A stretch of DNA of 64,000 bases from Tritonibacter multivorans (lineage in GTDB: Bacteria; Pseudomonadota; Alphaproteobacteria; Rhodobacterales; Rhodobacteraceae). Location: positions 1 to 64,000 of the forward strand of contig NZ_CYSD01000032.1 in assembly GCF_001458415.1 (NCBI RefSeq), in the 5' to 3' direction. Under the pieces are notes generated by a model. That model did not search any database. It saw nothing but the letters and a program-made list of their open reading frames with translations, and was not told the origin of the DNA. A program made the position numbers and the translations under genes. Of this stretch, positions 26,688 to 41,162 are shown piece by piece. Numbering within the stretch: the stretch's first letter is position 1; each line of letters opens with the position of its first letter.

Positions 26688-26806
26688 GTGTGTCGCCCAC
26701 CTCCCTTTGGTGTTTTCCCTGCGTGTCAGCTTTGTGTCAGGTTTTCTCTCCACCCTTGCCCGACAAGAGCGGCGAAGGCTGCTGTTGTCAAATGGGAGGA
26801 AACCAC

Positions 26807-27787
26807 ATGACTTTCGAACTGGGCCGTCGCGCCCTGCTGGCCGCGGCTGCGGCATTCACCCTGTCCGGCCCGGCGTTTGCTGATGGCCATAAGGTCGTAG
26901 ACAGCATCCACTTTCTGATCCCCGGCGGCGCTGGTGGTGGCTGGGATGGCACCGCACGCGGCACCGGAGAGGCGCTCACTGGCGCGGGTCTGGTCGGCAC
27001 CGCATCTTACGAAAACATGTCCGGCGGCGGCGGTGGCAAGGCCATTGGCTATATGATTGAAAACGCCGACAGCCAGCATGGCACACTCATGGTCAATTCG
27101 ACCCCGATTGTGATCCGTTCCCTGACCGGTGTGTTCCCGCATAATTTCCGCGACCTGACGCTGGTGGCGGGCACCATTGGGGACTATGCGGCGCTGGTGG
27201 TGAACAAGGACAGCCCAATCAATTCGATGGCCGACCTGATGACCGCCTATGACGCAGACCCGTCCGGCACCGCGGTTGGCGGCGGCTCTGTCCCCGGTGG
27301 CATGGACCATCTGGTCGCCGCCATGGTGATGGAAGCGGCGGGCAAAGACCCGCTGGACCTGAAATACATTCCTTATGACGCAGGTGGCAAAGCCATGGCA
27401 GCCCTGTTGTCCGGCGAGATCAAAGCGCTGTCTACAGGTTTCTCGGAAGCGGTCGCCCTGGCGGAAGCCGGCGAGGTGAAAATCATTGGTGTGACCTCTG
27501 ACGAACGCGTCGGTGCCTACGGGGACGCGGCGACCATGAAGGAACAGGGGATCGACACCACCTTTGTGAACTGGCGCGGCTTCTTTGCGGCTCCCGGCCT
27601 GCCCGAGGACAAGCTGGCCATGTACCAGGCTGCCATAACCAAAATGTATGACACGCCCGAATGGGAAGCCGTGCGCGCGCGCAATGGCTGGGTCAACATC
27701 CACAATTCGGGCGATGACTTCAAAACCTTCCTCGAAGGCCAGGAACAGGTCATCGGCGATCTGATGAAGAAGCTCGGCTTCCTGTGA
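26807..27787 (+). CDS. tctC: Tripartite tricarboxylate transporter binding protein TctC
   Basis: The ATG at 26807 follows GGGAGGAAACC and gives 326 residues. The signal has an RR pair and a hydrophobic core ending GPAFADG. The mature protein has the Bug/TctC fold with the conserved first ligand loop HFLIPGGAGGGWDGTAR, then VGGGSVPGGMDHL. It binds citrate or another carboxylate in the periplasm and feeds TctAB. The order tctC-tctB-tctA and the divergent tctDE fit a ligand-induced uptake system. Confidence 0.92.
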   Translation: MTFELGRRALLAAAAAFTLSGPAFADGHKVVDSIHFLIPGGAGGGWDGTARGTGEALTGAGLVGTASYENMSGGGGGKAIGYMIENADSQHGTLMVNSTPIVIRSLTGVFPHNFRDLTLVAGTIGDYAALVVNKDSPINSMADLMTAYDADPSGTAVGGGSVPGGMDHLVAAMVMEAAGKDPLDLKYIPYDAGGKAMAALLSGEIKALSTGFSEAVALAEAGEVKIIGVTSDERVGAYGDAATMKEQGIDTTFVNWRGFFAAPGLPEDKLAMYQAAITKMYDTPEWEAVRARNGWVNIHNSGDDFKTFLEGQEQVIGDLMKKLGFL

Positions 27788-27815
27788 AACCAACAAAAAC
27801 AACATCAAAACACGC

Positions 27816-27841
27816 GCACCCGACCCGATGTGGTCGGGTGC
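27816..27841 (+). promoter_or_regulatory. Hairpin in the tctC-tctB gap
   Basis: A perfect 10-base stem (GCACCCGACC with GGTCGGGTGC) closes a 6-base loop, 28 bases after tctC and 21 before tctB. There is no T-tract. Such a structure inside a transporter operon usually protects or partly terminates the upstream message, giving excess binding protein over permease. Confidence 0.6.
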
Positions 27842-27862
27842 ACTTCATCAAGGGAGGGGATC

Positions 27863-28345
27863 ATGGCACTCGATCGTTGGGTCGCATTTGTCATTCTTTG
27901 TGCAGCCCTGGCCTATGGCTATGCTGCCTTTTTCACAATGGACGCGAGCCTGCCGCCGTTCATGAAACGCAACCCGATCTGGCCCAGCACCTTCCCCAAG
28001 GTTCTCTGTGTCATGGCCGTGATCACGTCGCTGTTTATCTTGCTTGGGTTTGAAAAAGCCGCCGAGACGGGCAAAAAACCCGACATCGATTACCGCCGTC
28101 TGGGCGACTATCATCTGGTGCATGCGCTGCTGTTGATAGGTCTGATGGTGGCCTATGCGCTGTGCCTGCGGCCGCTTGGGTTCCTGTTTTCCACCTTTGC
28201 CTTTCTGGCCATCGGTGCCTTTGTTCTGGGCGAGCGCAAGTTTCACATCCTGATCCCCGTGGCCGCACTGGCCAGCGGCACCGTCTGGTATCTGGTCGAT
28301 CAGGTGCTGGGGATCTTCCTGCGCCCCTGGCCAATGTTTTTCTGA
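27863..28345 (+). CDS. tctB: Tripartite tricarboxylate transporter small permease TctB
   Basis: The ATG at 27863 follows GGGAGGGGATC and gives 160 residues, the usual size. Four hydrophobic segments lie near residues 5-25, 42-60, 90-110 and 125-150. The segment KRNPIWPSTFPKVL is typical of TctB. It pairs with TctA. Confidence 0.88.
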   Translation: MALDRWVAFVILCAALAYGYAAFFTMDASLPPFMKRNPIWPSTFPKVLCVMAVITSLFILLGFEKAAETGKKPDIDYRRLGDYHLVHALLLIGLMVAYALCLRPLGFLFSTFAFLAIGAFVLGERKFHILIPVAALASGTVWYLVDQVLGIFLRPWPMFF

Positions 28346-28357
28346 GGAGGGGAACCC

Positions 28358-29872
28358 ATGCTAGAAGGTTTGATGATTGGCCTAGGGGCCGCCTTTTCGA
28401 TCCAGAATTTGCTCATGGTGGTCGCCGGATGCCTGATCGGCACCTTTATCGGCATGCTGCCGGGTCTGGGGCCGATGTCCATTATTGCCATTATGATCCC
28501 CGTTGCGATCACCATTGGCGATCCCTCTGCCGCGCTGATCCTGCTGGCCGGGGTCTACTATGGCGCGATTTTTGGCGGCTCGACCTCGTCGATCCTGCTG
28601 AATGCGCCGGGGGTTGCGGGCACCGTTGCCACCAGTTTTGACGGCTATCCAATGGCCCGAAAAGGACAGGCGGGCAAGGCGCTGACCGTGGCCGCGATTG
28701 CGTCATTTGGCGGCGGCACCATTGGGGCCGTTCTGCTGATGGTCTTTGCGCCCATGCTGTCGACGGTTGCGCTGCTGTTCCATTCGGCAGAGTATTTTGC
28801 GCTCATGGTGGTCGGGCTGTCGGCGATTGCAGCTTTTGCCGGCACCGGCAATGTCGCCAAGGCCACGCTGATGACCCTTGTTGGGTTGATCATGGCCACG
28901 GTGGGCGAAGGTGCGCTGTTCAATATGCCCCGCTTCACCATGGGGCTGATGGATCTGCAATCGGGCTTCAGCTTTATCACACTTGCGATGGCGATGTTTG
29001 CCCTGCCCGAAGCGCTGTTCCTGGTGCTGAACCCGGCCCGCGCGGCGCAAGGGGACAGCGGCAAGATCGAAAACCTGCGCATCACCCGCGAAGAGGGGCG
29101 CAAGATCGCGCCGGTCATCGGGCGCCAGTCGCTGCAGGGCTTCTTTATCGGAGTTCTGCCGGGCGCCGGCGCAACCATTGCCTCGTTCCTTGGCTATGCG
29201 GTAGAGCGCAATATCGCCAGCAAGGAAGATCAGGCAGAATTCGGGCAAGGCTCTATCAAGGGGCTTGCAGCGCCGGAAAGCGCCAATAACGCCGCCTGTA
29301 CCGGATCTTTTGTGCCGCTTCTGACGCTTGGCATTCCGGGGTCTGGCACCACAGCAATCCTGCTGGGCGCGCTGATTGCGCTGAACGTCACTCCCGGCCC
29401 ACGGTTGATGATCGACAATCCGCAGATCTTTTGGGCAGTGATCATTTCGATGTATATCGGCAATCTGGTTCTGCTGATCCTGAACCTGCCGCTGATCCCC
29501 TATATCGCCAAAGTGCTGACGATCCCGCGCAACTATCTGATCCCGTTCATTCTGTTCTTCACACTGATGGGCAGTTACATCGGACAAAACAATGCGACAG
29601 AGCTGTTGATCCTTGTTGGCATGGGGCTTGCAGCAACCGTGCTGAAGTTCGCGGACTATCCGCTGGCGCCCCTGCTGATCGGCTTCATCCTTGGCGGCAT
29701 GCTGGAGGACAATTTCTCGCGTTCCATGCAGCTTTATGATGGCATCAGCTTTATTGTCGACCGGCCCATGACGCTTGGCCTGCTGGTTACAGCCGTATTG
29801 CTGGTGGTGATCCCCAGCTACCGCGCGCGCCGTGCAAAGGCCCGCCGGGATGGGGTGGCCGAAGGCGACTGA
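28358..29872 (+). CDS. tctA: Tripartite tricarboxylate transporter large permease TctA
   Basis: A 504-residue membrane protein with about 12 spans. Conserved loops GTFIGMLPGLGPMS, YYGAIFGGSTSSILLNAPG, GVLPGAGATIASFLGYA and LTLGIPGSGTTAILLGAL match TctA. It translocates the carboxylate delivered by TctC. A bidirectional hairpin follows, separating it from the convergent MocR gene. Confidence 0.95.
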   Translation: MLEGLMIGLGAAFSIQNLLMVVAGCLIGTFIGMLPGLGPMSIIAIMIPVAITIGDPSAALILLAGVYYGAIFGGSTSSILLNAPGVAGTVATSFDGYPMARKGQAGKALTVAAIASFGGGTIGAVLLMVFAPMLSTVALLFHSAEYFALMVVGLSAIAAFAGTGNVAKATLMTLVGLIMATVGEGALFNMPRFTMGLMDLQSGFSFITLAMAMFALPEALFLVLNPARAAQGDSGKIENLRITREEGRKIAPVIGRQSLQGFFIGVLPGAGATIASFLGYAVERNIASKEDQAEFGQGSIKGLAAPESANNAACTGSFVPLLTLGIPGSGTTAILLGALIALNVTPGPRLMIDNPQIFWAVIISMYIGNLVLLILNLPLIPYIAKVLTIPRNYLIPFILFFTLMGSYIGQNNATELLILVGMGLAATVLKFADYPLAPLLIGFILGGMLEDNFSRSMQLYDGISFIVDRPMTLGLLVTAVLLVVIPSYRARRAKARRDGVAEGD

Positions 29873-29931: not shown

Positions 29932-31299
29932 TCAGGCTTTGGACAATTGCCAGATCTGATTGTTCAGATGGGTCAGGGTTTGCGGCAGGTTTTCGCGCAG
30001 AAGCCGCCCGCCAAGGCAAATCCGAACAAAACGGTCCTGCTGCCCTGATGTGCGGAACGCGCTTTCTGGCGAAATGCCGATTTCCTGATTGGCCATATTC
30101 GCCATCAAGGTGCCGCAGGTCACATTCTCGGGCAGGCGCAGCCAAATGTTGAACGCATGCGGATTGGAAATGAACTCTGCTTCGGTGACCGTTTCGCGGG
30201 CAATCTGCTGACGCAGCGCGGTTTCATTGCGGATGAAGCGGCGGATCTGATCAGCGGTTCCATCCAGAACCCAGCGCGTCGCCAGCGCCATTGAGACCGG
30301 CGAGGCCATAACAGACACCGCGCGAATGCCGTTTTCCATCGCAAAACCCGCGCGCGCATTGGGCGCAATCGCATAGGCCAACCGCAACCCGGCCCCAATA
30401 CATTTGGCCAGACCCCCGATGTACCAGGTCAGATCCGGCGCATATGCGGCCATCGGCGGCGGCGCGTCCGGCAGGACAAACCCATAGGCATCATCTTCGA
30501 TCAACGGCAGGTCGTGACGTTTCATCACCGTGGTGATGTCCAGCCGACGGTCTTGCGGGACAATCATTGTGGTCGGGTTGTGCAGGGTTGGATTGAGGTA
30601 GAGCGCTTTGGGCTGATGAGCCTGAATAGCGGCCTCCAGCGCATCCGGCAGAATGCCGTTTTCATCCATTGGCAGACCGACCAGCCGGAGCCCAAGTTGC
30701 GCGGCGATTTTCTTGAAGCCGGCATAGGTGATGTCTTCGCACAGAATACAGTCGCCGGGCCGCGCCAGAACCGTCAGAATTGCCAGCATTGTTGCATGGG
30801 CTCCGGGCGTGACGGCGATCCGGTCCAGATTGGGGACAAGCCCCCGCATCGACAACCAGATGGACGCCGCTTCTTTGTCAATCTCGCCGCCGATTGGGTT
30901 TTGATAGCGCAGCAAATGCACCAAATCATTCGACACCGCCGACAGACCCGCGCGCATCCGTTCCAAGAGTTCGGGATCTGTGGGCTCGGGGGGGGCATTC
31001 ATGGTCAGGTCATGGGCCATCGCCCGGCGCTGATCGCTGGTGTCGCTGAAGCTCTGCTGTGGCAGGATAAAAGTACCGCGTCCCACATGGGTTTCGATCA
31101 GACCACGGCTAAGCGCCTCATTATACCCACGCGAAACGGTGGTGAAATCGACCCCGATCATATCCGCCAGTTTCCGCTGCGGGGGCAGCTGGTCCCCCGG
31201 TAACAGAACACGGTCTTTCATGTCCTGTGCGATGCAATCCGCAATCGCCAGATATCTGGGTTTTCGCGACTGTTCGATTCTCTGAGGCCAGTTTTCCAT
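29932..31299 (-). CDS. MocR family regulator (GntR domain fused to an aminotransferase fold)
   Basis: The open frame reaches 31455, but the ATG at 31297-31299 (MENWPQRIEQSRKPRYLAI) gives 455 residues and leaves the operator region non-coding. Residues about 15-80 form the GntR winged helix (LPPQRKLADMIGVDFTTVSRGYNEAL). The rest is a fold-type I aminotransferase domain with VTPGAHATMLAIL and the likely PLP lysine in GGLAKCIGAGLRLAY. It diverges from the Nit1C-type operon with a 267-base repeat-rich gap and is the likely regulator. PLP or a PLP-amino acid adduct may be the effector, as known for MocR proteins. Confidence 0.9.
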   Translation of the reverse strand: MENWPQRIEQSRKPRYLAIADCIAQDMKDRVLLPGDQLPPQRKLADMIGVDFTTVSRGYNEALSRGLIETHVGRGTFILPQQSFSDTSDQRRAMAHDLTMNAPPEPTDPELLERMRAGLSAVSNDLVHLLRYQNPIGGEIDKEAASIWLSMRGLVPNLDRIAVTPGAHATMLAILTVLARPGDCILCEDITYAGFKKIAAQLGLRLVGLPMDENGILPDALEAAIQAHQPKALYLNPTLHNPTTMIVPQDRRLDITTVMKRHDLPLIEDDAYGFVLPDAPPPMAAYAPDLTWYIGGLAKCIGAGLRLAYAIAPNARAGFAMENGIRAVSVMASPVSMALATRWVLDGTADQIRRFIRNETALRQQIARETVTEAEFISNPHAFNIWLRLPENVTCGTLMANMANQEIGISPESAFRTSGQQDRFVRICLGGRLLRENLPQTLTHLNNQIWQLSKA

Positions 31300-31334
31300 C
31301 GAATCCCCGTCTTGCGGTTGGAGGTCATTGCATA

Positions 31335-31499
31335 ATTGTATGCATGATATACAGACAATAACGCGCAGCTCTCGTCGACGAAATTCTCGTAAAATATCGA
31401 GGAATATCCCGATTTTCCCTGATTCAGTCCGCTTTTGCTCAGAATGCAGGCACATTCATACAATCAATACAATTATATTGATTGCAATATTGTATGCAT
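31335..31499. promoter_or_regulatory. Candidate MocR operator region with repeated ATTGTAT/ATACAAT boxes
   Basis: The 11-base word ATTGTATGCAT occurs at 31335-31345 and again at 31489-31499. ATACAAT occurs at 31458-31464 and 31467-31473. Nested inverted repeats include CATACAAT (31457-31464) with ATTGTATG (31489-31496), and CAATCAAT (31461-31468) with ATTGATTG (31477-31484). Multiple direct and inverted half-sites between divergent genes are typical of MocR operators. The stretch is AT-rich against its surroundings and also holds both promoters. Confidence 0.6.
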
Positions 31500-31566
31500 C
31501 AATGGAGGTCACGGCGGCCGCGCGTCTAGCAATGGGTAGCACCAACGCAAACGACAGGAGAGCGCA

Positions 31567-32049
31567 ATGCCAGACGTGACAACCCCCGCCCACAAAGACG
31601 GTGATTTCTTCGTCAACTACGAGGAAAAAGTCTTTGAAGACGTGCAAGCCGAAGAGGGTCAGAAAGCCCTCGTGACCTTCCATACAGTTGCCTTTGAAGG
31701 CTCTATCGGGCTGGTGAATATCCTCCAAGCCATCCGCCTGCAGCGCAAAGGCTTTGAAACCTCTGTGCTGCTTTATGGACCCGGCGTGTCTCTGGGGGTG
31801 CAGCGGGGCTTCCCGACGCTGGGCGACGAAGCGTTCCCGGGCGCGCAGAACTATGCCGCCAATCTGACAAAGTTCATGAAGGAAGGCGGCAAGGTCTATG
31901 CCTGCCGCTTTGCCCTGCAAATGCTGATGGGCCACGGCGAACCTTCGCTGCTGCCGGGCATCACACCGATCGCCCCGCAGGACGTTCTGGACCTGAAGCT
32001 GCTGCACGTGCGCGACAATGCGGTGATCGTCGACACCTGGACGCTGTAA
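31567..32049 (+). CDS. MSMEG_0572/Sll0783-type protein of the Nit1C cluster (DsrE-like fold)
   Basis: A 160-residue protein opening the cluster. The sequence fits the family seen beside Nit1 nitrilases, with a DsrE-like alternating pattern ([20 protein letters not shown], then [15 protein letters not shown], then [14 protein letters not shown]). One cysteine (YACRFA) sits where DsrE-like proteins place a sulfur carrier residue. No enzymatic activity is established for the family. The Synechocystis member was found as a nitrogen-starvation-responsive protein. Position at the head of the operon argues for a role in the same pathway as the nitrilase. Confidence 0.85.
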
Positions 32050-32112
32050 CTCCAGCCCCACCGGGGCGGCAATGTTGCTGTCCCGGCGGTTCCTTTTATT
32101 CCCCAAAAGCCA

Positions 32113-32134
32113 GAGGCGGCAACGGCGCCGCCTC
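32113..32134 (+). promoter_or_regulatory. Hairpin between the first cluster gene and the nitrilase
   Basis: Eight-base arms GAGGCGGC and GCCGCCTC flank a six-base loop in the 106-base gap. It lies 14 bases before the AAAGGAG ribosome site of the nitrilase. It may tune relative expression of the first gene; no T-tract follows. Confidence 0.4.
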
Positions 32135-32155
32135 CCCCTTGCAAAGGAGTTTCGC

Positions 32156-33136
32156 ATGGCCAATCGCACCATCCGAGCCGCCGCAGTCCAGATTGCACCA
32201 GATTTAACAGGCCGCGCGGGCACCATCGAACGGGTTCTGAACGCAATCGCCGAAGCCGCCGAAAAAGGCGCAGAGCTGATCGTTTTCCCGGAGACCTTTG
32301 TCCCCTACTACCCGTATTTCTCCTTTGTATTGCCGCCGATCCAACAGGGGCCTGAACATCTGCGCCTTTATGAGGAGGCCGTTGTGGTGCCATCGCCTGA
32401 AACTCAGGCCGTAGCCGATGCGGCCCGCAAGCGTGGCGTGGTGGTGGTGCTGGGCGTGAATGAACGCGACAAGGGGTCGCTGTTCAACACGCAGCTGATT
32501 TTTGACGCTGACGGCACTCTGGCGCTGAAGCGGCGCAAAATTACCCCGACCTATCACGAACGCATGGTCTGGGGCCAAGGCGATGGCGCAGGGCTGCGCG
32601 TGGTCGAGACCAAAGTTGGCCGGGTTGGCGCGCTGGCCTGCTGGGAGCATTACAACCCGCTGGCGCGCTATGCGCTGATGTCCCAGCACGAAGAAATCCA
32701 TGTCGGCCATTTCCCCGGCAGCCTTGTGGGGCCGGTGTTTGCCGAACAGATCGAAGTCACCATGCGCCATCACGCGCTGGAAGCCGGGGCCTTTGTGGTC
32801 AATTCCACTGGTTGGCTGACCGAAGACCAGATCAGCTCTGTGACCGAAGACCCGAAGTTGCAAAAGGGTCTGCGCGATGGCTGCATGACCTGCATTATTT
32901 CGCCCGAAGGCCGCCATGTGGTGCCGCCGCTGACCGCAGGCGAAGGCATCCTGATCGCGGATCTCGACATGGCCCTTGTCACCAAACGCAAACGGATGAT
33001 GGACAGCGTCGGCCACTATGCGCGGCCCGAGCTGCTGCATCTGGTCCATGACGCCCGCCCGACCCAGCCGGTGCGGCGCATCGAAGAGGAACAGGATCTG
33101 ACCACATCGCAAGAACAGGAGGCCGAAGATGTCTGA
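32156..33136 (+). CDS. Nit6803-type nitrilase
   Basis: The ATG at 32156 follows AAAGGAGTTTCGC and gives 326 residues. The catalytic Glu-Lys-Cys set is visible: E46 in [13 protein letters not shown]128 in [20 protein letters not shown]162 in [12 protein letters not shown]. The C-proximal ACWEHYNPL and GQGDG loop match aliphatic nitrilases of the Synechocystis Nit6803 type. It hydrolyses a nitrile to acid plus ammonia. It overlaps the next gene by eight bases. Its cluster partners suggest that the physiological nitrile is made or modified by the radical SAM, flavin and GNAT enzymes. Confidence 0.93.
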
Positions 33137-34229
33137 CGCTGCGCTGATCAACGAACTGCAAACCCACGGCATGCGGATGATCGACCCCTCTGTCGGTCTG
33201 CAAAGCCGCCGTGGTGGCGCTGGCCCGACCGACCACAAGGCCGTCACCATTGGCGACACGACGGTCATGATCCCGGTCCACACGGCCCCGGCCTTCGACA
33301 GCCCCTATGTGGTGCAGGCCCCGAACGCCGAGGGCATCGCAGAGGTGACCAAGGCGGGCGTTTCTCTGGGCGAGGTAAAGTTCCCCTCCCGTCCCAAGTT
33401 CTACGATCTGAAAACCGCGGATGGGATTGCGTACAGCAAGATCGCAACGCTGCATTCCAAGGATGTTCTGGCCACCACGGTGCTGCAGGACTGCATCCGC
33501 TATGCCAGCCGCAAGAAAACCTGCCAGTTCTGCTCTATCGGGCAATCCCTGGCTGCGGGGCGCACGATTGCGCATAAAACCCCGGCCCAACTGGCCGAGG
33601 TCGCCAAGGCCGCCGTCGACCTGGACGGGGTCAAACATATGGTCATGACCACCGGCACGCCCAGGGGCGCAGACCGCGGCGCGCAGGTGATGGTCGACAG
33701 TGCGCAGGCGATCAAGGCTGCTGTGGACCTCCCCATTCAGGGCCAATGTGAACCGCCCGAAGATGACATCTGGCACGCGCGGATGTTTGAGGCCGGGATT
33801 GATAACCTCGGCATGCATCTCGAGGCCGTCACCCCCGAGGTCCGCGCCCGCGTCATGCCCGGCAAGGCACAGGTGAGCCTTGAGAAGTATTTCGACAGTT
33901 TCAAAGCAGCCGTGCGGGTCTTTGGCCGGGGTCAGGTTTCAACCTATATTCTTGCCGGTCTCGGCGACACGCCCGAGGCGATCCTCGCCACCTCGCAAGA
34001 GCTTTGCAAAATCGGGGTCTACCCGTTTGTGGTGCCGTTCGTACCCGTCTCTGGCACCCCGATGGAAGGGCACCCGGCCCCAACGGCAGACTTCATGTCG
34101 GGCATTCTCAAGCCGCTCTCCGGGATGATCCTGCGCGCCGGGATGAGTGCCGAAAGTGCCAAGGCCGGCTGCGCCAAATGCGGGGCGTGTTCCGCCCTGT
34201 CCACCTATGAAAAGCTGCGTGCGTCATGA
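33129..34229 (+). CDS. MSMEG_0568-type radical SAM protein
   Basis: A 366-residue protein. The likely cluster cysteines are C122, C132 and C135, a C-x9-C-x2-C arrangement instead of the classical C-x3-C-x2-C. A second cysteine set, C348, C351 and C354 (GCAKCGACS), near the C-terminus could hold an auxiliary iron-sulfur centre. The family resembles cofactor-building radical SAM enzymes of the BioB type in its barrel ([25 protein letters not shown]). Its reaction is not assigned. Start overlaps the nitrilase and stop overlaps the GNAT gene by four bases, which binds it tightly to the operon. Confidence 0.9.
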
Positions 34230-34774
34230 GTTTCCAGCGCGCGCAGGCCTTTCTATCGCCCGACTACATCATTCGCGCAGCCGCGCAGCCTTGGGAACTG
34301 GCTGGTGTCCGGGCCCTTCGGCATCAGGTCTTTGTCGAGGAACAGGGCATCTTTGACAGGGATGACCGCGACGACATTGATGACATTGCCATGCCGCTGG
34401 CCGCGATCAGCACTTTTGCGGCAGAGGCCGATCAGGTGGTCGGCACCGTGCGCATTCATCAAGAGGCACCTCGGATCTGGCGCGGCTCTCGGCTGGCGGT
34501 TGCGCAAAGCCACCGCCGTTTGGGGCGGCTTGGCGCAGAGCTGATCCGCCTTGCGGTCTGCACCGCGCACGGGCGCGGCTGCGACCGATTTATGGCCCAT
34601 GTGCAGATCCAGAACGTGCCGCTGTTCAAACGCCTGCGATGGCACCCCCTGCGCGAGGTCGAATTGCACGGGGTCCTGCATATGGAAATGCAGGCGGATC
34701 TGTCCTTTTACCCGCCCATCCCCGACCCATTCGCTGGCTGGAAAGCGCTTTCACCGAAACGGAGGTCCGTATGA
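34226..34774 (+). CDS. GNAT N-acetyltransferase-like protein of the Nit1C cluster (Sll0786 type)
   Basis: A 182-residue GNAT fold with VRALRHQVFVEEQGIF near residue 27, the acetyl-CoA-binding region SRLAVAQSHRRLGRLGAELIRLAV and LFKRLRWHPLREVELHG. In mycobacteria the homologous protein is fused to the AIR-synthase-like partner; here the two are separate genes overlapping in an ATGA. It likely acylates an amine in the pathway. Confidence 0.85.
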   Translation: MSFQRAQAFLSPDYIIRAAAQPWELAGVRALRHQVFVEEQGIFDRDDRDDIDDIAMPLAAISTFAAEADQVVGTVRIHQEAPRIWRGSRLAVAQSHRRLGRLGAELIRLAVCTAHGRGCDRFMAHVQIQNVPLFKRLRWHPLREVELHGVLHMEMQADLSFYPPIPDPFAGWKALSPKRRSV

Positions 34775-35757
34775 TACAGCCGCCACTGCCCATTCGAAAA
34801 ATCGCACGCGACCTGCGGGATCACCCCTCCATTCGCAGCAAGCTCGACATTGCGCAAAGCACGCACACGCTGGGCCTGACCGCCGACAGTGCGGGTACTC
34901 CGGGTGACGATTGCGCCGTGCTGCCCGCTGCTGACGGGTTTGATCTGTTTGCCTGCGAAGGTTTCATCAACGCCTTTGTCAAAACCGACCCTTGGTTTGC
35001 CGGCTGGTGCGGGGTGATGGTGAATATCTCGGACATTCTGTCGATGGGCGGGCGCCCGCGCGCTGTCACCAATGCCATCTGGGCCCCCAACGCTGAACAG
35101 GCCCAGCCGGTTCTGGCGGGTATGAAGGCGGCCTCGCAGGCTTACGGGGTTCCGGTGGTCGGCGGGCACACCAATCTGCACACCGATGACCTGCAACTGT
35201 CTGTGTCCATCCTTGGCCATGCGCAGCAGCTGATCACCAGCTTTGATGCCGCGCCCGGCGACGTTTTGATCTGCGCGATTGATCTACAGGGCAGCTACCG
35301 CGAACCCTTTGATAATTGGAACGCGGCCTTGACTTCGCCGCCGGAAAAACTGCGTGCCACAATGGAAATCCTGCCCACTCTGGCCGAAGATGGGCTGGTC
35401 ACAGCGGGCAAAGACATCAGCCAGGGCGGCATTGTCGGCACCGCCCTGATGCTGGCCGAAGCCTCTGGCGTTGCGATTGACATCCAGCTCGAAGCGTTGC
35501 CGCGCCCTGCTGGTGTCGACATTGAACGCTGGCTGCGGACCTTTCCCAGCTTTGGCTTTCTGGTGTCGGCACGCCCGGACCATGCCCCTGCGATCTGCGC
35601 CGAGTTTGCCAAATTCGGCATTGCCGCGGCGGCCTGCGGTGATGTGCGCGACGGCAGCACTGTGGACCTGCAGGCGCGCGATGGGCGCGCGGCCTTCTGG
35701 GATTACCAACGCAGCCCCTATCTGAACCTTTCGGCAAAAGAGGCCAGCCATGCCTGA
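34771..35757 (+). CDS. AIR synthase-like protein (Sll0787 family)
   Basis: The ATG at 34771 overlaps the GNAT stop, and a GGAGG site lies seven bases before it; 328 residues. The PurM/ThiL-type ATP-binding half is visible (DDCAVLPAADGFDLFACEGF, GVMVNISDILSMGGRPRAV) as is the second half (GGHTNLH, GKDISQGGIVGTALMLAEASG). Family members bind ATP and phosphorylate or activate a carbonyl-type substrate. It is distinct from housekeeping purM by context. It overlaps the next gene by eight bases. Confidence 0.87.
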   Translation: MIQPPLPIRKIARDLRDHPSIRSKLDIAQSTHTLGLTADSAGTPGDDCAVLPAADGFDLFACEGFINAFVKTDPWFAGWCGVMVNISDILSMGGRPRAVTNAIWAPNAEQAQPVLAGMKAASQAYGVPVVGGHTNLHTDDLQLSVSILGHAQQLITSFDAAPGDVLICAIDLQGSYREPFDNWNAALTSPPEKLRATMEILPTLAEDGLVTAGKDISQGGIVGTALMLAEASGVAIDIQLEALPRPAGVDIERWLRTFPSFGFLVSARPDHAPAICAEFAKFGIAAAACGDVRDGSTVDLQARDGRAAFWDYQRSPYLNLSAKEASHA

Positions 35758-36028
35758 AACCCGTTTCACCCTGCGCTGGCCCGACGGCCAGATCGACGAA
35801 TGCTACTCTCCCTCGACCGTAGTGCTGGAGTTTCTCAAGGCTGACACCACCTACCCGCTGGAGGAATTCCTCGACCGCTGCCGCGAGGCACTGGAACAGG
35901 CCAGCCGGCGCGTCGAAGCCAAATTCGGCTTCCGCTGCACCAGCGCCGACGCGCAACTCTCTGCAATCGAACGCAAAGCCAGCACATTCACGGCAACCGA
36001 AACCGTGACCTGTCTTTCGATCTCCTAA
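35750..36028 (+). CDS. MSMEG_0570-type small protein of the Nit1C cluster
   Basis: A 92-residue protein with no signal or membrane span. It begins MPETRFTLRWPDGQ and carries a conserved-looking middle (CYSPSTVVLEFLKADTTYPLEEFL). The family is known only from this cluster and has no assigned activity. Its size and acidic, single-domain character would suit a carrier or accessory subunit, but that is inference. Confidence 0.85.
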   Translation: MPETRFTLRWPDGQIDECYSPSTVVLEFLKADTTYPLEEFLDRCREALEQASRRVEAKFGFRCTSADAQLSAIERKASTFTATETVTCLSIS

Positions 36029-36038
36029 GGAGCCCCTC

Positions 36039-37295
36039 ATGACCCACCGTGAACATAAATCCGTTGTCATTGTTGGCGGCGGGCAGGCTGGCCTGTCCGT
36101 AAGCTATTATCTGTGCCGGGAAGGGCTGGACCACGTCATTCTGGAACGCCACCAAAAGTTCCATTCCTGGCGCAGCAACCGCTGGGACACCTTCTGTCTG
36201 GTCACCCCCAACTGGCAATGCCGCCTGCCGGACTTTCCCTATCAAGGCACCGATCCCGAAGGCTTTATGGTCAAGGACGAGATCACCGATTACCTCGACG
36301 CCTTTGCTGAAACTTTTGACCCGCCCGTGATCGAGAATTGCGAGGTCACCAAGATCACCCAGCGCCCCGGTGGTGGCTATTTTGTGGACAGCAGTCAGGG
36401 CGATTTTTCGGCAGATCAGGTGGTGATTGCCACCGGGGGCTATGACAATCCGATTGTGCCGCCCTATGCCAAGACCCTTGATCCATCAATTCAGCAGATG
36501 CATTCGGTCGATTACCGCCGCCCTGCGCAAATGCCGGAAGGGGGCACGTTGGTTGTGGGGACTGGCCAGTCCGGCGTGCAGCTGATGGAGGATCTGCACC
36601 TTGAAGGGCGCGATGTGCATCTGGCCGTTGGCCCGGCGCCGCGATCGCCGCGCATGTATCGCGGCCGGGACGCGACCGACTGGCTGTACGAGATGGGACA
36701 TTACCACATGACCATCGACAAGCACCCCAACCCCGAACATGCGGTCTCCAAGACCAATCACTATATGACCGGCCGCGACGGTGGGCACGAAATCGACCTG
36801 CGCAAATTCGCGCGGGAGGGGGTGTCGCTCTATGGCTCTGTCAGCGGCATGGACGGCAGCCGCATCCAGTTTCTGCCAGATCTGGAGGCCAATCTTGACG
36901 ACGCCGACCAGAGCTATGTCCGGATCCGGGAGGCGGTCGACAGCTACATCGACAAAAACAACATTGACGCGCCGACCGAGCCCGCCTTTGAAAAGGTCTG
37001 GCGACCAGAGCAGGAGATCACGGAAATCGACTGCAAGAAGGAAGGGATTACGTCCATTCTTTGGGCGATTGGATTTCGCCCTGACTATCACTGGATCGAC
37101 GTTGATGTGTTTGATGCGCGGGGGCGCCCGGTCTACCGGCGTGGTGTCTGCAAGACGGAAGGGTTCTATTTTATCGGGCTGGGTTGGCTCAACACATGGG
37201 GTTCTGGCCGGTTTCTCGGTATTGACGAAGACTCCCGCTATTTGGTGCAGCAGATTGCCGCCAAAGCCAAATCCACCCTGCAGGTTGCCTCATGA
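36039..37295 (+). CDS. MSMEG_0569-type flavin-dependent oxidoreductase
   Basis: A 418-residue FAD protein. The dinucleotide motif VVIVGGGQAGLSVSYYL is at residues about 8-24, and a second, NADPH-type motif VVGTGQSGVQL sits near residue 171. The segment RSNRWDTFCLVTPNWQ resembles flavin monooxygenases of the CzcO/Trk type. It could hydroxylate nitrogen, for example on the way to or from an oxime, but no substrate is known. It lies 10 bases after the MSMEG_0570-type gene and overlaps the last cluster gene by four. Confidence 0.9.
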   Translation: MTHREHKSVVIVGGGQAGLSVSYYLCREGLDHVILERHQKFHSWRSNRWDTFCLVTPNWQCRLPDFPYQGTDPEGFMVKDEITDYLDAFAETFDPPVIENCEVTKITQRPGGGYFVDSSQGDFSADQVVIATGGYDNPIVPPYAKTLDPSIQQMHSVDYRRPAQMPEGGTLVVGTGQSGVQLMEDLHLEGRDVHLAVGPAPRSPRMYRGRDATDWLYEMGHYHMTIDKHPNPEHAVSKTNHYMTGRDGGHEIDLRKFAREGVSLYGSVSGMDGSRIQFLPDLEANLDDADQSYVRIREAVDSYIDKNNIDAPTEPAFEKVWRPEQEITEIDCKKEGITSILWAIGFRPDYHWIDVDVFDARGRPVYRRGVCKTEGFYFIGLGWLNTWGSGRFLGIDEDSRYLVQQIAAKAKSTLQVAS

Positions 37296-38104
37296 ACATC
37301 GCGCCCCGCACCGCCTGCCTGCCCCATGAACGCTTGGGGCAGATGACCCTCGGCATGGCCCAGCTGGCCCCACGCGGCCTGTCCGAAGACTGGTGGCTCA
37401 AGCATCTGGGCGATGTGCACTGGCAGCTGATTGCCGAGGCGGTGGGCCAAAACACAACCGTGTTTCGGGACCGGCAGGGGCGGCAGCTCTATGCGGCGTT
37501 CTGCGCAACCGAGTTCGCCCAATCCCACCCTGACCGGGTTGGATTGGGTCAAAACCTCGACATCCGGTCCACACTGTGGTCCGTGGGGCACAGCCGCATT
37601 CAATCCAACCACCGCATTCTGGCGGAAGGGGTCGAGGTTGCGCAGGTCCGGTTGGTTTCTACTTTTGTGGCCCATATGAAAGCCAATGTGAACGCCAGCG
37701 TCAGCCGGGCCACACCCTATCTGGTGCCTGTACTGGATCCTGCGCCAGACGATTTTGCCCGCCAGGCAGGCCAGCTGGCGAAGAGCGAAAAACAAACACG
37801 CCATACCGGCGCAGATCACGTGGCACTGTCCACGACGGTTGGCGCGGATTTCAATGCGGTCGGGCTGTTGTATTTCCCAAGCTTCACCCGCCTGCTGGAA
37901 CAGGCCGAAGTCGCCTTCGCCGATGGCACCCCGTGGCGTCCGGTCAAAAGGCGCTTGGTGCTTTACTTTGGGAACATCGAAATGGGGGACAGTGTCCTGG
38001 GTGTTCAACCCTTTGACATGGAAGGGCAAATGTCACTTCAGCACATCTGTGCATCAACCGGCCAAAAGCGCGCCATCGCCTTTGGCCAAACCAGTCGCCA
38101 TTGA
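37292..38104 (+). CDS. LnmK-like acyltransferase/decarboxylase-type protein (Pnap_2097 family)
   Basis: A 270-residue protein ending the operon. Features are the N-terminal RLGQMTLGMAQLAPRGLSE-type start, EDWWLKHLGDVHWQLIAEA, and a second half with DFNAVGLLYFPSFTRLLEQAE, a hot-dog-like thioesterase pattern. LnmK acts as a bifunctional acyltransferase/decarboxylase in leinamycin biosynthesis. The presence of such a protein suggests that an acyl thioester takes part in the pathway. The activity here is not known. Confidence 0.8.
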   Translation: MNIAPRTACLPHERLGQMTLGMAQLAPRGLSEDWWLKHLGDVHWQLIAEAVGQNTTVFRDRQGRQLYAAFCATEFAQSHPDRVGLGQNLDIRSTLWSVGHSRIQSNHRILAEGVEVAQVRLVSTFVAHMKANVNASVSRATPYLVPVLDPAPDDFARQAGQLAKSEKQTRHTGADHVALSTTVGADFNAVGLLYFPSFTRLLEQAEVAFADGTPWRPVKRRLVLYFGNIEMGDSVLGVQPFDMEGQMSLQHICASTGQKRAIAFGQTSRH

Positions 38105-38437: not shown

Positions 38438-38466
38438 TTGACAAACAGCCGCCCCGGATCTAGAAA
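38438..38466 (+). promoter_or_regulatory. Candidate sigma-70-type promoter of the nadM-nadV unit
   Basis: TTGACA at 38438-38443, a 17-base spacer and TAGAAA at 38461-38466. A small inverted repeat CCGGAT/ATCCGG overlaps the second box. It lies about 50 bases before the start of nadM. Confidence 0.55.
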
Positions 38467-38472
38467 TCCGGC

Positions 38473-38491
38473 GTGCAAGGAAGTCTTGCAC
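38473..38491. promoter_or_regulatory. Inverted repeat between promoter and nadM start
   Basis: Perfect 7-base arms GTGCAAG and CTTGCAC flank GAAGT. It lies just after the predicted start of transcription, where a repressor would act. It does not match the NrtR or NiaR consensus that I know, so the binding protein is unknown. Confidence 0.45.
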
Positions 38492-38518
38492 ATATATTAC
38501 TATCGCGGAGGTCGCGCT

Positions 38519-39625
38519 ATGTCACAGGTCACGCTTTCAGTGATCATTGGACGGTTTCAGCCTTTTCACAAAGGCCACCGGAAACTGTTCGAACATGCTT
38601 CACACATCTCAGATCAAACCCTCGTCCTTATTGGGTCCTCTTTCCGGCCGCGGTCAGAAAAGAATGCTTTCAAATGGACAGAGCGGGCAGATTTCATTGC
38701 CAATGCGATGAAAGCGTCCGGCAGCACGGCGCAGATCACCTGTTTGCCGCTGATCGACACGCTTTATGACGACAAGACCTGGGCGGGAAATGTGCGCACG
38801 GCGATTGATCTGCACTTGCGCACACAAGGCATTGCACGCGCGGATGCAAACATTGTGCTTGTTGGCCATGACAAGGATGAAAGCAGCCGCTATCTGCGCT
38901 GGTTCCCCGAATTCAAAGCCGCCGCCGTAGAGGCCGAACACAATGCCGGCACCGTGTTGAATGCAACCGATATGCGGGCGGGGTTCTTCCTCGACAAAAC
39001 GCCTGTGGCAAAGCTGCGGGACGTGTTTGGCACTGTGGAAACGGATCAGGTTGTCGCATGGATGGACAGCCACCCCGACGCGGTGGCGCAGATCCGGGCC
39101 GAAGCTGCCTATAATCAGTCCTACCGGGAAAACTACCAAAAGGCGGTGTCCGCCTTTGGCTATGAAATCCCCGCGGACTGTGCCGATGCGGTGGTGGTCC
39201 AGAACGGCCATATTCTTTTGGTCGAACGCGCCAATGCGCCGGGGCGTGGGCTGTTTGCCCTGCCGGGTGGGCACCTCCAGAAGGAAACCGCACGGGACGC
39301 AGCCATTCGCGAATTGATTGAGGAAACCCGCCTCAATATCCCACGCAAGCTGCTGGAAGGCCGGATCGCGGCCCGTCAGGTGTTTGACCACCCAGAGCGG
39401 TCGGAACGCGGATGGGTGCGCACAGAGGCGTTCAAATTCGAACTGATCGACGGCAAGGCTCAGGAAAAGGTCAAAGGGTCCGATGACGCCAAACGCGCCT
39501 TCTGGATGCCGATCAACCAGCTGACCCCGGATGTCATGTTCGAAGATCACTTCGACATTATTCAGGCCTTGGTTCCCAATGTGCCCTTTGCCTATTCCTC
39601 GGTTCTGATGAGCCGTATGCACTGA
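38519..39625 (+). CDS. nadM: Bifunctional NMN adenylyltransferase / Nudix hydrolase
   Basis: The ATG at 38519 follows GGAGGTCGCGCT and gives 368 residues. Residues about 1-185 form a nucleotidyltransferase domain with GRFQPFHKGH (residues 11-20). Residues about 200-360 form a Nudix domain with the box GGHLQKE-x7-RELIEET. The combination matches the Synechocystis Slr0787-type enzyme: it makes NAD from NMN and ATP, and the Nudix part cleaves ADP-ribose. With nadV it forms a complete nicotinamide to NMN to NAD route. Confidence 0.95.
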   Translation: MSQVTLSVIIGRFQPFHKGHRKLFEHASHISDQTLVLIGSSFRPRSEKNAFKWTERADFIANAMKASGSTAQITCLPLIDTLYDDKTWAGNVRTAIDLHLRTQGIARADANIVLVGHDKDESSRYLRWFPEFKAAAVEAEHNAGTVLNATDMRAGFFLDKTPVAKLRDVFGTVETDQVVAWMDSHPDAVAQIRAEAAYNQSYRENYQKAVSAFGYEIPADCADAVVVQNGHILLVERANAPGRGLFALPGGHLQKETARDAAIRELIEETRLNIPRKLLEGRIAARQVFDHPERSERGWVRTEAFKFELIDGKAQEKVKGSDDAKRAFWMPINQLTPDVMFEDHFDIIQALVPNVPFAYSSVLMSRMH

Positions 39626-39737
39626 ATTCACTGGCCCCGCGCGGGTCATGAATGATCGTGGCCCGCAGGGGCCATGATCCAGCCCACCGGGAGGTCCGGT
39701 GCGGCGTTACATATCCGATCCAAGGAGGACTGGAACC

Positions 39738-41162
39738 ATGATGTTGCACACATCCAATTTTGCCGAGGCGATCGACGCAGGAAATTTCCTGCTCGACACG
39801 GACAGCTATAAATACAGCCACCCCCAACAGTTTCCCAAAGGCACCGAACGGGTCTTTGCCTATATCGAACCACGGCGTGCGGATGGGGTCATTGACGAGC
39901 TGGTGTTCTTTGGCCTTCAGGCCGAGCTGATGCAGCTTTCGGGGCAGGTCATCACACAAGCAATGCTGGATGAAGCGGCCCCGTTTATCCAAGCCCACGG
40001 TCTGTCGCTCTATACAGAGATGTTTCAACACATCATCGACGCCCATGACGGGCGCCTGCCGGTGCAGATCGACGCCCTGCCCGAAGGTACAATCGCCCCG
40101 GTTTCAGTGCCGCAGGTCAGAATTGTGAACACAGACCCCAAATGCTGGGCCTTGCCGGGTTTTCTGGAAACGCGGCTTCTGCGGGCGGTGTGGTATCCCA
40201 GTACGGTTGCCACCCTGTCAAACTACGTGATGCGCCAGATCCGGTCGCGGTTGATGGAAACCGACGGCAGCGATGACGGGCTTGCTTTCAAACTGCATGA
40301 CTTTGGGGCGCGTGGTGCCACCAGCGCACAGAGTGCCGCCCTTGGCGGGGCGGCCCATTTGGTGAATTCCATGGGCACCGACACAATGGGCGCGTTGGTT
40401 CTGGCCCGGAATGTCTATGGTGCTGAGATGGCAGGGTTTTCGATCCCGGCAACTGAACACAGCACCGTGACCTCTTTTGGTCCAACCGGGGAGCTGGCCT
40501 TTATGCGGCAGTTCCTCGCGGACAACCCAAATGGGATCATTGCCTGTGTGTCGGACAGCTATGACCTGATGCGCGCGGTGCGGGAGTATTGGGGCACCGA
40601 GCTGCGGGATGCAGTGCTGGCCCGCGATGGTGTGCTGGTTGTGCGCCCCGACAGCGGTGATCCCGTGGACATCGTCCCCGCCGTGATCGAGGCCCTGATG
40701 GAAAAGTTCGGATACTCTGAAACGCCCAAAGGGTTCCGCATTCTGCCGGATCAGCTGCGCGTCATCCAAGGGGACGGCGTCAACAAGACCTCGATTGTGG
40801 AAATCATGGACCGCATGATCGAACGGGGTCTTGCGATTGGAAACATCGCCTTTGGCATGGGCGCGGGCCTGTTGCAGAAACTGGATCGCGACACGTTTTC
40901 CTATTCCATGAAAACCTCGGCCATTTGCGTCAGGGGCATATGGCGCGATGTCTTCAAAGACCCGGTCACCGCACAGGGCAGCAAGACGTCCAAGAAGGGC
41001 CGTCTGGGGGTGATGGAAACGGACAGCGGCCGATTTGTGGTCCGTCCGCAGGACAATATTCCGCCCGGCCATGATGCGCTGAAACCGGTGTTTGTGGATG
41101 GTGCGCTCACCCTGCGCCACAGTTTCGCAGACATCCGTAAACGCGTCGGCCTGATCCGTTAG
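39738..41162 (+). CDS. nadV: Nicotinamide phosphoribosyltransferase
   Basis: The ATG at 39738 follows AAGGAGGACTGG and gives 474 residues, the normal NadV/NAMPT length. Visible are LLDTDSYKYSHPQQFP near the start, the HDFGARGATSAQSAALGG region, RPDSGDPVDIV and the GVNKTSI loop. It makes NMN from nicotinamide and PRPP, so nicotinamide is salvaged without deamidation. It follows nadM by 112 bases, a gap that holds imperfect GGCCC/GGGCC stem-loops. Confidence 0.95.
   Translation: MMLHTSNFAEAIDAGNFLLDTDSYKYSHPQQFPKGTERVFAYIEPRRADGVIDELVFFGLQAELMQLSGQVITQAMLDEAAPFIQAHGLSLYTEMFQHIIDAHDGRLPVQIDALPEGTIAPVSVPQVRIVNTDPKCWALPGFLETRLLRAVWYPSTVATLSNYVMRQIRSRLMETDGSDDGLAFKLHDFGARGATSAQSAALGGAAHLVNSMGTDTMGALVLARNVYGAEMAGFSIPATEHSTVTSFGPTGELAFMRQFLADNPNGIIACVSDSYDLMRAVREYWGTELRDAVLARDGVLVVRPDSGDPVDIVPAVIEALMEKFGYSETPKGFRILPDQLRVIQGDGVNKTSIVEIMDRMIERGLAIGNIAFGMGAGLLQKLDRDTFSYSMKTSAICVRGIWRDVFKDPVTAQGSKTSKKGRLGVMETDSGRFVVRPQDNIPPGHDALKPVFVDGALTLRHSFADIRKRVGLIR

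Follow-up and report, generated by a model that had tools for sequence, protein, structure and literature searches.

The 64,000-nucleotide stretch of Tritonibacter multivorans DNA analysed here (the window, from contig NZ_CYSD01000032.1) belongs to a genome of 4.17 Mb that is assembled into 45 contigs, and it carries a complete Nit1C gene cluster in a form associated with a MocR-type regulator and extended by an LnmK-like gene. Nit1C was defined by Podar in 2005 as a seven-gene cluster, then without experimental function (PMC1199592; here and below, papers are cited from the parts of their text at hand). Evident at the level of sequence are the gene families, the arrangement of the operon, a clade of MocR proteins associated with Nit1C, and an operator-like box confined to this site within the genome. 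The best reading of this MocR-controlled form is that a switch based on pyridoxal phosphate (PLP) would be opened by cyanide or a cyanide-derived compound, a proposal for which the case is close to evenly balanced. The Tritonibacter locus is a variant of Nit1C and not a new system: the sequence-only reading had ranked it as the best candidate for an under-described system, a ranking that lacks support in so far as Nit1C has been described since 2005 and related clusters have phenotypes in Pseudomonas, Synechocystis and Mycobacterium smegmatis.

Eight plus-strand open reading frames (ORFs), all co-directional, are confirmed at 31567-38104, and the divergent MocR gene faces them from the opposite strand. 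The features are the following, with profile scores and cut-offs in brackets.

29932-31299, minus strand: nit-MocR, with a GntR-type helix-turn-helix (HTH) and an aminotransferase-like domain; candidate PLP lysine K351 (numbering of the 507-residue ORF)
31335-31345, plus strand: distal operator-like box ATTGTATGCAT
31454-31464, minus strand: inverted operator-like box, ATTCATACAAT on the plus strand
31489-31499, plus strand: proximal operator-like box ATTGTATGCAT
31567-32049, plus strand: nitB, TIGR04044, DsrE/YchN-like (271.6, cut-off 109.85)
32050-32155, plus strand: nitB-nitC spacer with two predicted hairpins
32156-33136, plus strand: nitC, TIGR04048, Nit6803-type nitrilase (549.3, cut-off 502.6)
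33129-34229, plus strand: nitD, TIGR04043, radical SAM protein (578, cut-off 303.7)
34226-34774, plus strand: nitE, TIGR04045, GNAT (217, cut-off 68.45)
34771-35757, plus strand: nitF, TIGR04049, AIR-synthase/ThiL-like (435, cut-off 321.3)
35750-36028, plus strand: nitG, TIGR04042 (114.2, cut-off 79.85)
36039-37295, plus strand: nitH, TIGR04046, flavin oxidoreductase, monooxygenase-like (628.8, cut-off 498.35)
37292-38104, plus strand: LnmK-like gene, candidate acyltransferase/decarboxylase (TIGR04099 195.5, cut-off 125; TIGR04098 177.4, cut-off 100)

All eight operon proteins exceed the curated NCBIfam cut-offs, seven of them for the Nit1C families and the eighth for the LnmK-like family, and the seven clustered families that define Nit1C are all present. 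The earlier claim of a complete cluster at this place and on this strand is therefore sound; the eight proteins do not fall into unrelated families, and a chance assembly of such families is rejected, every member being above its cut-off. A genome search returned a single NitC match at the search threshold and a single NitD above cut-off. The same seven families, in the order B-C-D-E-F-G-H, make up the nit1C clusters of Pseudomonas pseudoalcaligenes/oleovorans CECT5344 and P. fluorescens NCIMB 11764, and that of CECT5344 also has a divergent regulator gene. Whereas the regulator of the published Pseudomonas clusters is the divergent sigma-54 Fis-type NitA, which Podar's definition does not include, a MocR occupies this place in Tritonibacter, and the operon adds the LnmK-like gene after nitH as well as the operator-like boxes. 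The proteins of the M. smegmatis gpr cluster (MSMEG_0565-0572) and of the Synechocystis sll0783 operon give the NCBIfam families their names. These two differ in their regulation: the gpr cluster is reported to be under GlnR control (PMC6039565), and the sll0783 operon to be induced by nitrogen starvation (PMC3901256). The available portions of these two accounts name no LnmK-like gene.

The MocR gene is the feature that carries the regulatory part of the proposal. Its product shows the hallmarks of the MocR subfamily: a GntR HTH, an Aminotran_1_2 domain and the PLP lysine, K351, which is kept in at least 97% of 98 MocR rows (conservation is counted throughout on distinct rows, 86-102 per gene). 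The ORF is open to 31455, and the family alignment starts only at residue 56; as a gene of that length would take in the distal box, translation probably begins at M53 (31299) and not at the first ORF codon (31455). To place the following counts, 112 Nit1C loci were reduced to 101 with a distinct NitD sequence, the Tritonibacter locus not being counted; all were drawn via NitC, NitD or the LnmK-like gene and are mostly alphaproteobacterial. A divergent MocR (match above 200 bits) accompanies 98 of the 101. The three loci lacking a match are L148 (on a short contig), L157 and L190, the last of which encodes a PAS/sigma-54 regulator instead, as in the published Pseudomonas clusters. L190 is also the one exception in the phylum sample, where MocR is found at 15 of 16 NitD loci, five of them outside Alphaproteobacteria. 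In a tree of 51 nit-MocRs and 29 others, the nit-MocRs lie on one side of a single branch (support 93/69), recovered in 95% of bootstrap trees. The sequences point to a clade of MocR proteins tied to Nit1C.

The intergenic region adds a second line of evidence. ATTGTATGNAT occurs three times in the 4.17 Mb genome when exact matches are required, each time between MocR and nitB, and the reversed pattern, used as a control, does not occur at all. A wider regulon read by the exact box was rejected for the Tritonibacter genome, as ATTGTATGNAT is found at no other place with mismatches disallowed. Among 86 dereplicated intergenic regions from Alphaproteobacteria (L054-L079 and L080-L159 plus the Tritonibacter locus), 76 contain the core TTGTATG one or more times and 66 contain it at least twice; the total is 169 matches, whereas 20 dinucleotide shuffles gave 4.15 on average and never more than 7. 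The motifs usual for MocR proteins consist of two to four boxes, direct and inverted, that carry a TGT or TGG group (PMC5320631); for the clusters known in 2005, Podar described no conserved upstream binding site (PMC1199592). The sequence-only reading had credited the cluster with its own MocR regulator; the clade, the boxes and the single target in the genome make that statement stronger than it was.

The nature of the effector is suggested by relatives of the nit-MocRs and by published work, which together make a cyanide-type effector the one we infer. Related MocRs were collected with the second MocR of locus L111 as query; the set comprises 22 loci, namely the 20 top-listed matches outside Nit1C plus L232 and L233, and includes two nit-type MocRs (L273, L277) while excluding L111 itself. 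Oxidase genes (cyd in three, cyo in two) lie within 4 kb of the related MocR in 5 of the 22 loci, and a DUF983 gene lies within the same distance in 13; the corresponding figures at EhuR-like control loci are 0/20 and 1/20. In L270 and in control L301, both counted, the DUF983 match falls in an ORF overlapping that of MocR, and the L301 MocR (346 bits) may belong with the nit-like group. In Tropicimonas sp. IMCC34043 (L111:11075-15893), the Nit1C-LnmK operon is directly followed, on the other strand, by cydB and cydA together with a second nitrilase gene and the second MocR, which has TTGTATG sites upstream. Cyd genes 6 kb from MocR in L276, a weak case, and a partial cyd at the end of the Nit1C locus L157 were not counted. 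Of the 101 distinct loci, 9 have a DUF983 gene within 1 kb of the nit-MocR and 7 have one after the operon. Examples beside MocR are L063, L101, L105, L106, L112 and L178; in L067, L115 and L123, for instance, it is the tenth gene, after LnmK.

Two MocR proteins have been tied to cyanide-responsive genes, oxidase genes among them, although their targets differ from those considered here. MpaR of P. aeruginosa drives gene expression that depends on cyanide, and the ligand proposed by its authors is a PLP-cyanide adduct; its predicted PLP lysine is required for reporter activity and endogenous cyanide for full activity (PMC10790758). Loss of the CECT5344 MocR (BN5_1899) renders the cio cluster, which contains nit4, constitutive, as reported from unpublished data (PMC8567248). 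In the proposed mechanism, nit-MocR with bound PLP would occupy the three boxes and keep the activity of the two divergent promoters low until the PLP reacts with cyanide, or with a cyanide-derived amine or nitrile, which would release the block.

A number of observations weigh against this switch or against its generality. The nit-MocR is likened to MpaR and to the CECT5344 MocR by description and not by sequence, and the MpaR motif, ATCTGAT, differs from the Tritonibacter box. TTGTATG is absent from 10 of the 86 regions (L054-L058, L135, L147, L149, L152, L153), all of them alphaproteobacterial loci outside Rhodobacteraceae; among the 12 scorable loci of the other 13, it is found in 4, that is in 4 of 7 from the same class and in none of the five outside Alphaproteobacteria (L181, L186-L189), where a divergent MocR is present. 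The box would therefore be limited to part of the MocR clade, and distant nit-MocRs must, on this motif evidence, use another sequence. No cyd or cyo gene lies within 4 kb of MocR at any of 110 nit loci (duplicates kept), and none of 14 loci with more distantly related MocRs, taken from a single other family, has an oxidase, DUF983 or nitrilase match. In a larger tree, the branch that puts the cyd-linked MocRs (L111, L265, L266, L268) on the nit side is weak (63/77), both cyo-linked MocRs belong to a separate group of eight attached on the EhuR side, and L273 and L277, which have no nearby Nit genes, fall inside the nit group. The single DUF983 gene of Tritonibacter has no oxidase gene within 1.5 kb on each side; an oxidase link of that gene was rejected, none being present in the surrounding 3.3 kb. 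Finally, the closest named equivalog of the regulator is EhuR (NF052286), so that the effector may be an amino compound. The two nit-type MocRs just mentioned (L273:8261-9664 and L277:8610-10157) have no Nit genes in 18 kb and a DUF983 gene close by.

The alternative that follows from the EhuR match is that the MocR senses an amino compound and not cyanide, in the manner of EhuR- or GabR-type proteins; the compound could be an amino acid, a diamine or an amino-nitrile. This alternative appears somewhat unlikely. The PLP lysine is kept, and eight other nit-MocRs match the EhuR model at 354-452 bits, although all of them, like the Tritonibacter protein (403.5 bits), remain below its cut-off of 480. 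Against this alternative, 14 EhuR-like proteins form a separate group in the larger tree (93/95), and the 20 EhuR-like loci have no oxidase neighbours. The identification of the regulator with the ectoine regulator EhuR itself was rejected on the score and on the tree.

The LnmK-like gene is the second departure from the Nit1C clusters of Pseudomonas. Its product belongs to TIGR04098/TIGR04099, gives a profile match to LnmK with an E-value of 4.3e-14 and has in common with LnmK, the methylmalonyl-CoA acyltransferase/decarboxylase of the leinamycin pathway (PDB 4HZN, 4HZO, 4HZP, 6X7L), the stretch DxN(G/A)xGLLYF. Y67, kept in at least 97% of 86 rows, aligns with tyrosine 62 of chain 6x7l (profile alignment, position counted), presumably the catalytic residue of LnmK. 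These similarities make the product a candidate acyltransferase/decarboxylase, here found within a Nit1C operon. A collection of species genomes was scanned with 11 sequences, all linked to Nit1C, and 80 of 84 confirmed places were kept. In 75 of the 80 the ORF follows three or more Nit genes of its own strand, and 72 of these 75 also have a divergent MocR. The linkage count rests on a query drawn from linked loci alone, the unlinked homologue L062 having been left out, and this too weighs against the proposal; L062 shows that TIGR04099 also occurs with no Nit1C nearby. Of the five remaining loci, L118, L124 and L156 start at a contig end, L158 combines MocR with a partial NitB, and L102 is without Nit genes although its flanks are complete. 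L158, from Pararhodobacter marinus, which also gives a partial LnmK match, resembles a decayed cluster. The solitary gene of L102 (L102:9944-10738) belongs to Mangrovicoccus sp. HB161399, whose other copy (L136) stands in a full Nit1C operon. In the family sample, the LnmK-like gene adjoins nitH in 12 of 17 NitD genomes, Tritonibacter multivorans included, with G498 scored as lacking it even though the contigs there break off in the cluster itself or less than 2 kb away. No such gene was found at the six phylum-sample loci outside Alphaproteobacteria.

The operon is compact. The four- to eight-base overlaps given in the sequence-only reading are seen at five of the seven junctions (nitC/nitD 8, nitD/nitE 4, nitE/nitF 4, nitF/nitG 8 and nitH/LnmK 4 bases), whereas nitB and nitC are 106 bases apart and nitG and nitH 10. 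The nitC start is probably at 32156, with AAAGGAG just 5' of it, and that of nitF probably at 34771. Tight junctions recur in homologous loci (duplicates kept): nitC/nitD in 110 of 112, nitD/nitE in 107 of 111 and nitE/nitF in 109 of 111. The nitB-nitC spacing recurs as well, mostly at 40-119 bases. In Tritonibacter this spacer folds into two strong hairpins; relatives have different stem sequences. Compared with shuffles, 100 spacers (Tritonibacter included, duplicates kept) have a mean z-score of -2.24, with 56 below -2 and the Tritonibacter spacer at -2.68. The hairpins may serve to raise the NitB level or to stabilise the NitB message.

The individual proteins give a first idea of the chemistry. 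NitC, as the sequence-only reading had held, is the member of clearest reaction class: it is of the Nit6803, or subfamily 1, nitrilase type (TIGR04048), its best PDB match is 3WUY (labelled "Nitrilase", E-value 1.3e-145), which we take to be Nit6803, and it keeps E46, K128 and C162, which fit the nitrilase triad. NitB keeps C113 in 97/97 rows; a low-confidence structure model resembles DsrE/YchN folds, and a weak sequence match to 3mc3 (E-value 0.08) aligns the cysteines of the two proteins. The canonical radical SAM motif is CX3CX2C, and NitD, despite its PF04055 domain (44.9 bits, cut-off 29.5), lacks it: the protein has CX9CX2C (C122, C132, C135) and matches the variant model NF045502 (178.7, cut-off 125). 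These three cysteines and C207 are each present in 102/102 rows, and C348, C351 and C354 in 101/102; because C207 and the C348/C351/C354 set are conserved, a second iron-sulfur cluster is likely. The NitD profile has no PDB match at an E-value of 0.01 or better. NitF is closest in the PDB to thiamine-monophosphate kinase; a true selenophosphate synthetase was rejected, the best SelD model scoring 62.6 bits against a cut-off of 125. NitG keeps C63 in 98/98 rows, and its structure model is confident (pLDDT 93.6); no Foldseek PDB match reaches an E-value of 0.001 (best 0.43), which is no proof of a new fold. NitH is closest in the PDB to flavin monooxygenases, and its cysteines are highly conserved.

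Under the cyanide-opened switch, NitC would hydrolyse cyanide-derived 2-hydroxynitriles to the acid and ammonia, as reported for Pseudomonas. NitB might carry sulfur on C113 or act as a stoichiometric partner. NitD, NitE, NitF and NitH would alter a companion molecule, contributing a radical, an acyl-transfer, an ATP-activation and an oxygenation step, and the LnmK-like enzyme would supply or trim an acyl group for this branch, perhaps for NitE. The sequence-only reading went further and had a nitrile made and consumed inside a biosynthetic route, which is possible in view of the gene set. In its full form this alternative is a route through a nitrile to a small redox or sulfur metabolite, with acyl (LnmK-like, NitE) and glycosyl (GT4) decoration and with cyanide use as a side activity of NitC. 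Several pieces of evidence favor it: the LnmK-like gene with its tyrosine conserved at the LnmK position; the second cysteine set of NitD and the conserved cysteines of NitB, NitG and NitH; an insert of about 1 kb between nitF and nitG, judged by gap size, in 18 of 98 scorable distinct loci, which is a GT4-type glycosyltransferase in all four checked by Pfam (L178, L182, L183, L187); peroxide sensitivity and a lower NADPH/NADP ratio upon deletion of the cluster in M. smegmatis (PMC6039565); and lower NADPH/NADP with less polyhydroxybutyrate in a Synechocystis sll0783 mutant (PMC3901256). Conversely, the cluster is reported to be essential for growth on cyanide in Pseudomonas (PMC11049912), and the regulator context points to cyanide, against biosynthesis as the sole role. 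When the other neighbours at 80 loci were clustered, none of the 25 recurrent groups listed, one of which is DUF983 (12 loci), proved to be a further constant member of the operon, and inspection of these groups by eye revealed no transporter or carrier protein that is constantly associated. On balance, the biosynthetic route is of rather low probability.

Plain scavenging of nitrogen from cyanide or nitriles is a further alternative. The role of NitB and NitD to NitH would then be protection or assembly of NitC, or synthesis of a carrier ketone, with the LnmK-like protein as an accessory. Cyanide assimilation and induction are described in Pseudomonas (PMC11049912, PMC8567248), and picocyanobacterial copies are commoner in low-nitrogen waters (PMC10119275). 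This proposal leaves unexplained why the radical SAM, GNAT and AIR-synthase-type proteins are retained with NitC, all seven families occurring together in 97 of the 101 distinct loci, and it must be considered distinctly improbable. A joint reading would have a dedicated MocR clade govern most sampled Pseudomonadota Nit1C loci, sense cyanide directly as a PLP adduct and share descent with regulators of cyanide-tolerant oxidases, while the operon turns cyanide or a nitrile into a sulfur/redox metabolite that is acylated (LnmK-like, NitE) and, in some lineages, glycosylated. It is very doubtful as a whole; if true, it would link the cyanide-growth phenotype to those of NADPH and peroxide.

The cluster is unevenly distributed. 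In samples of genomes that are draws and not censuses, NitD is above cut-off in 17 of 345 genomes of the family, the T. multivorans genome included, and in 16 of 398 of the phylum; in the class draw, NitC is above cut-off in 9 of 289 genomes and the LnmK-like family in 3. The same-genus genome in the family draw has no NitD above cut-off. These counts indicate a patchy occurrence, as expected if the unit is transferred from genome to genome or frequently lost. In the window, a TctCBA-like transporter set is located upstream of the locus (26690-29872), and NadM/Nudix-like and nicotinamide-phosphoribosyltransferase-like genes downstream (38438-41162), both from ORF reading alone.

In the open-licence literature of PubMed Central, no worked-out Nit1C pathway was found, nor a paper tying MocR, pyridoxal, regulon and nitrilase together, nor one joining LnmK with a nitrilase; within that literature the nit-MocR clade, its boxes, its relatives beside oxidase genes and the linkage of the LnmK-like gene as the ninth member are new. 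Since the boxes are unique to the operon, they offer a simple reporter to find the inducer, which in turn would point to the substrate of the pathway. The nit-MocR may be a second PLP-based cyanide switch beside MpaR, and the LnmK-like gene adds a reaction type that any pathway proposal for the alphaproteobacterial form of Nit1C must explain.

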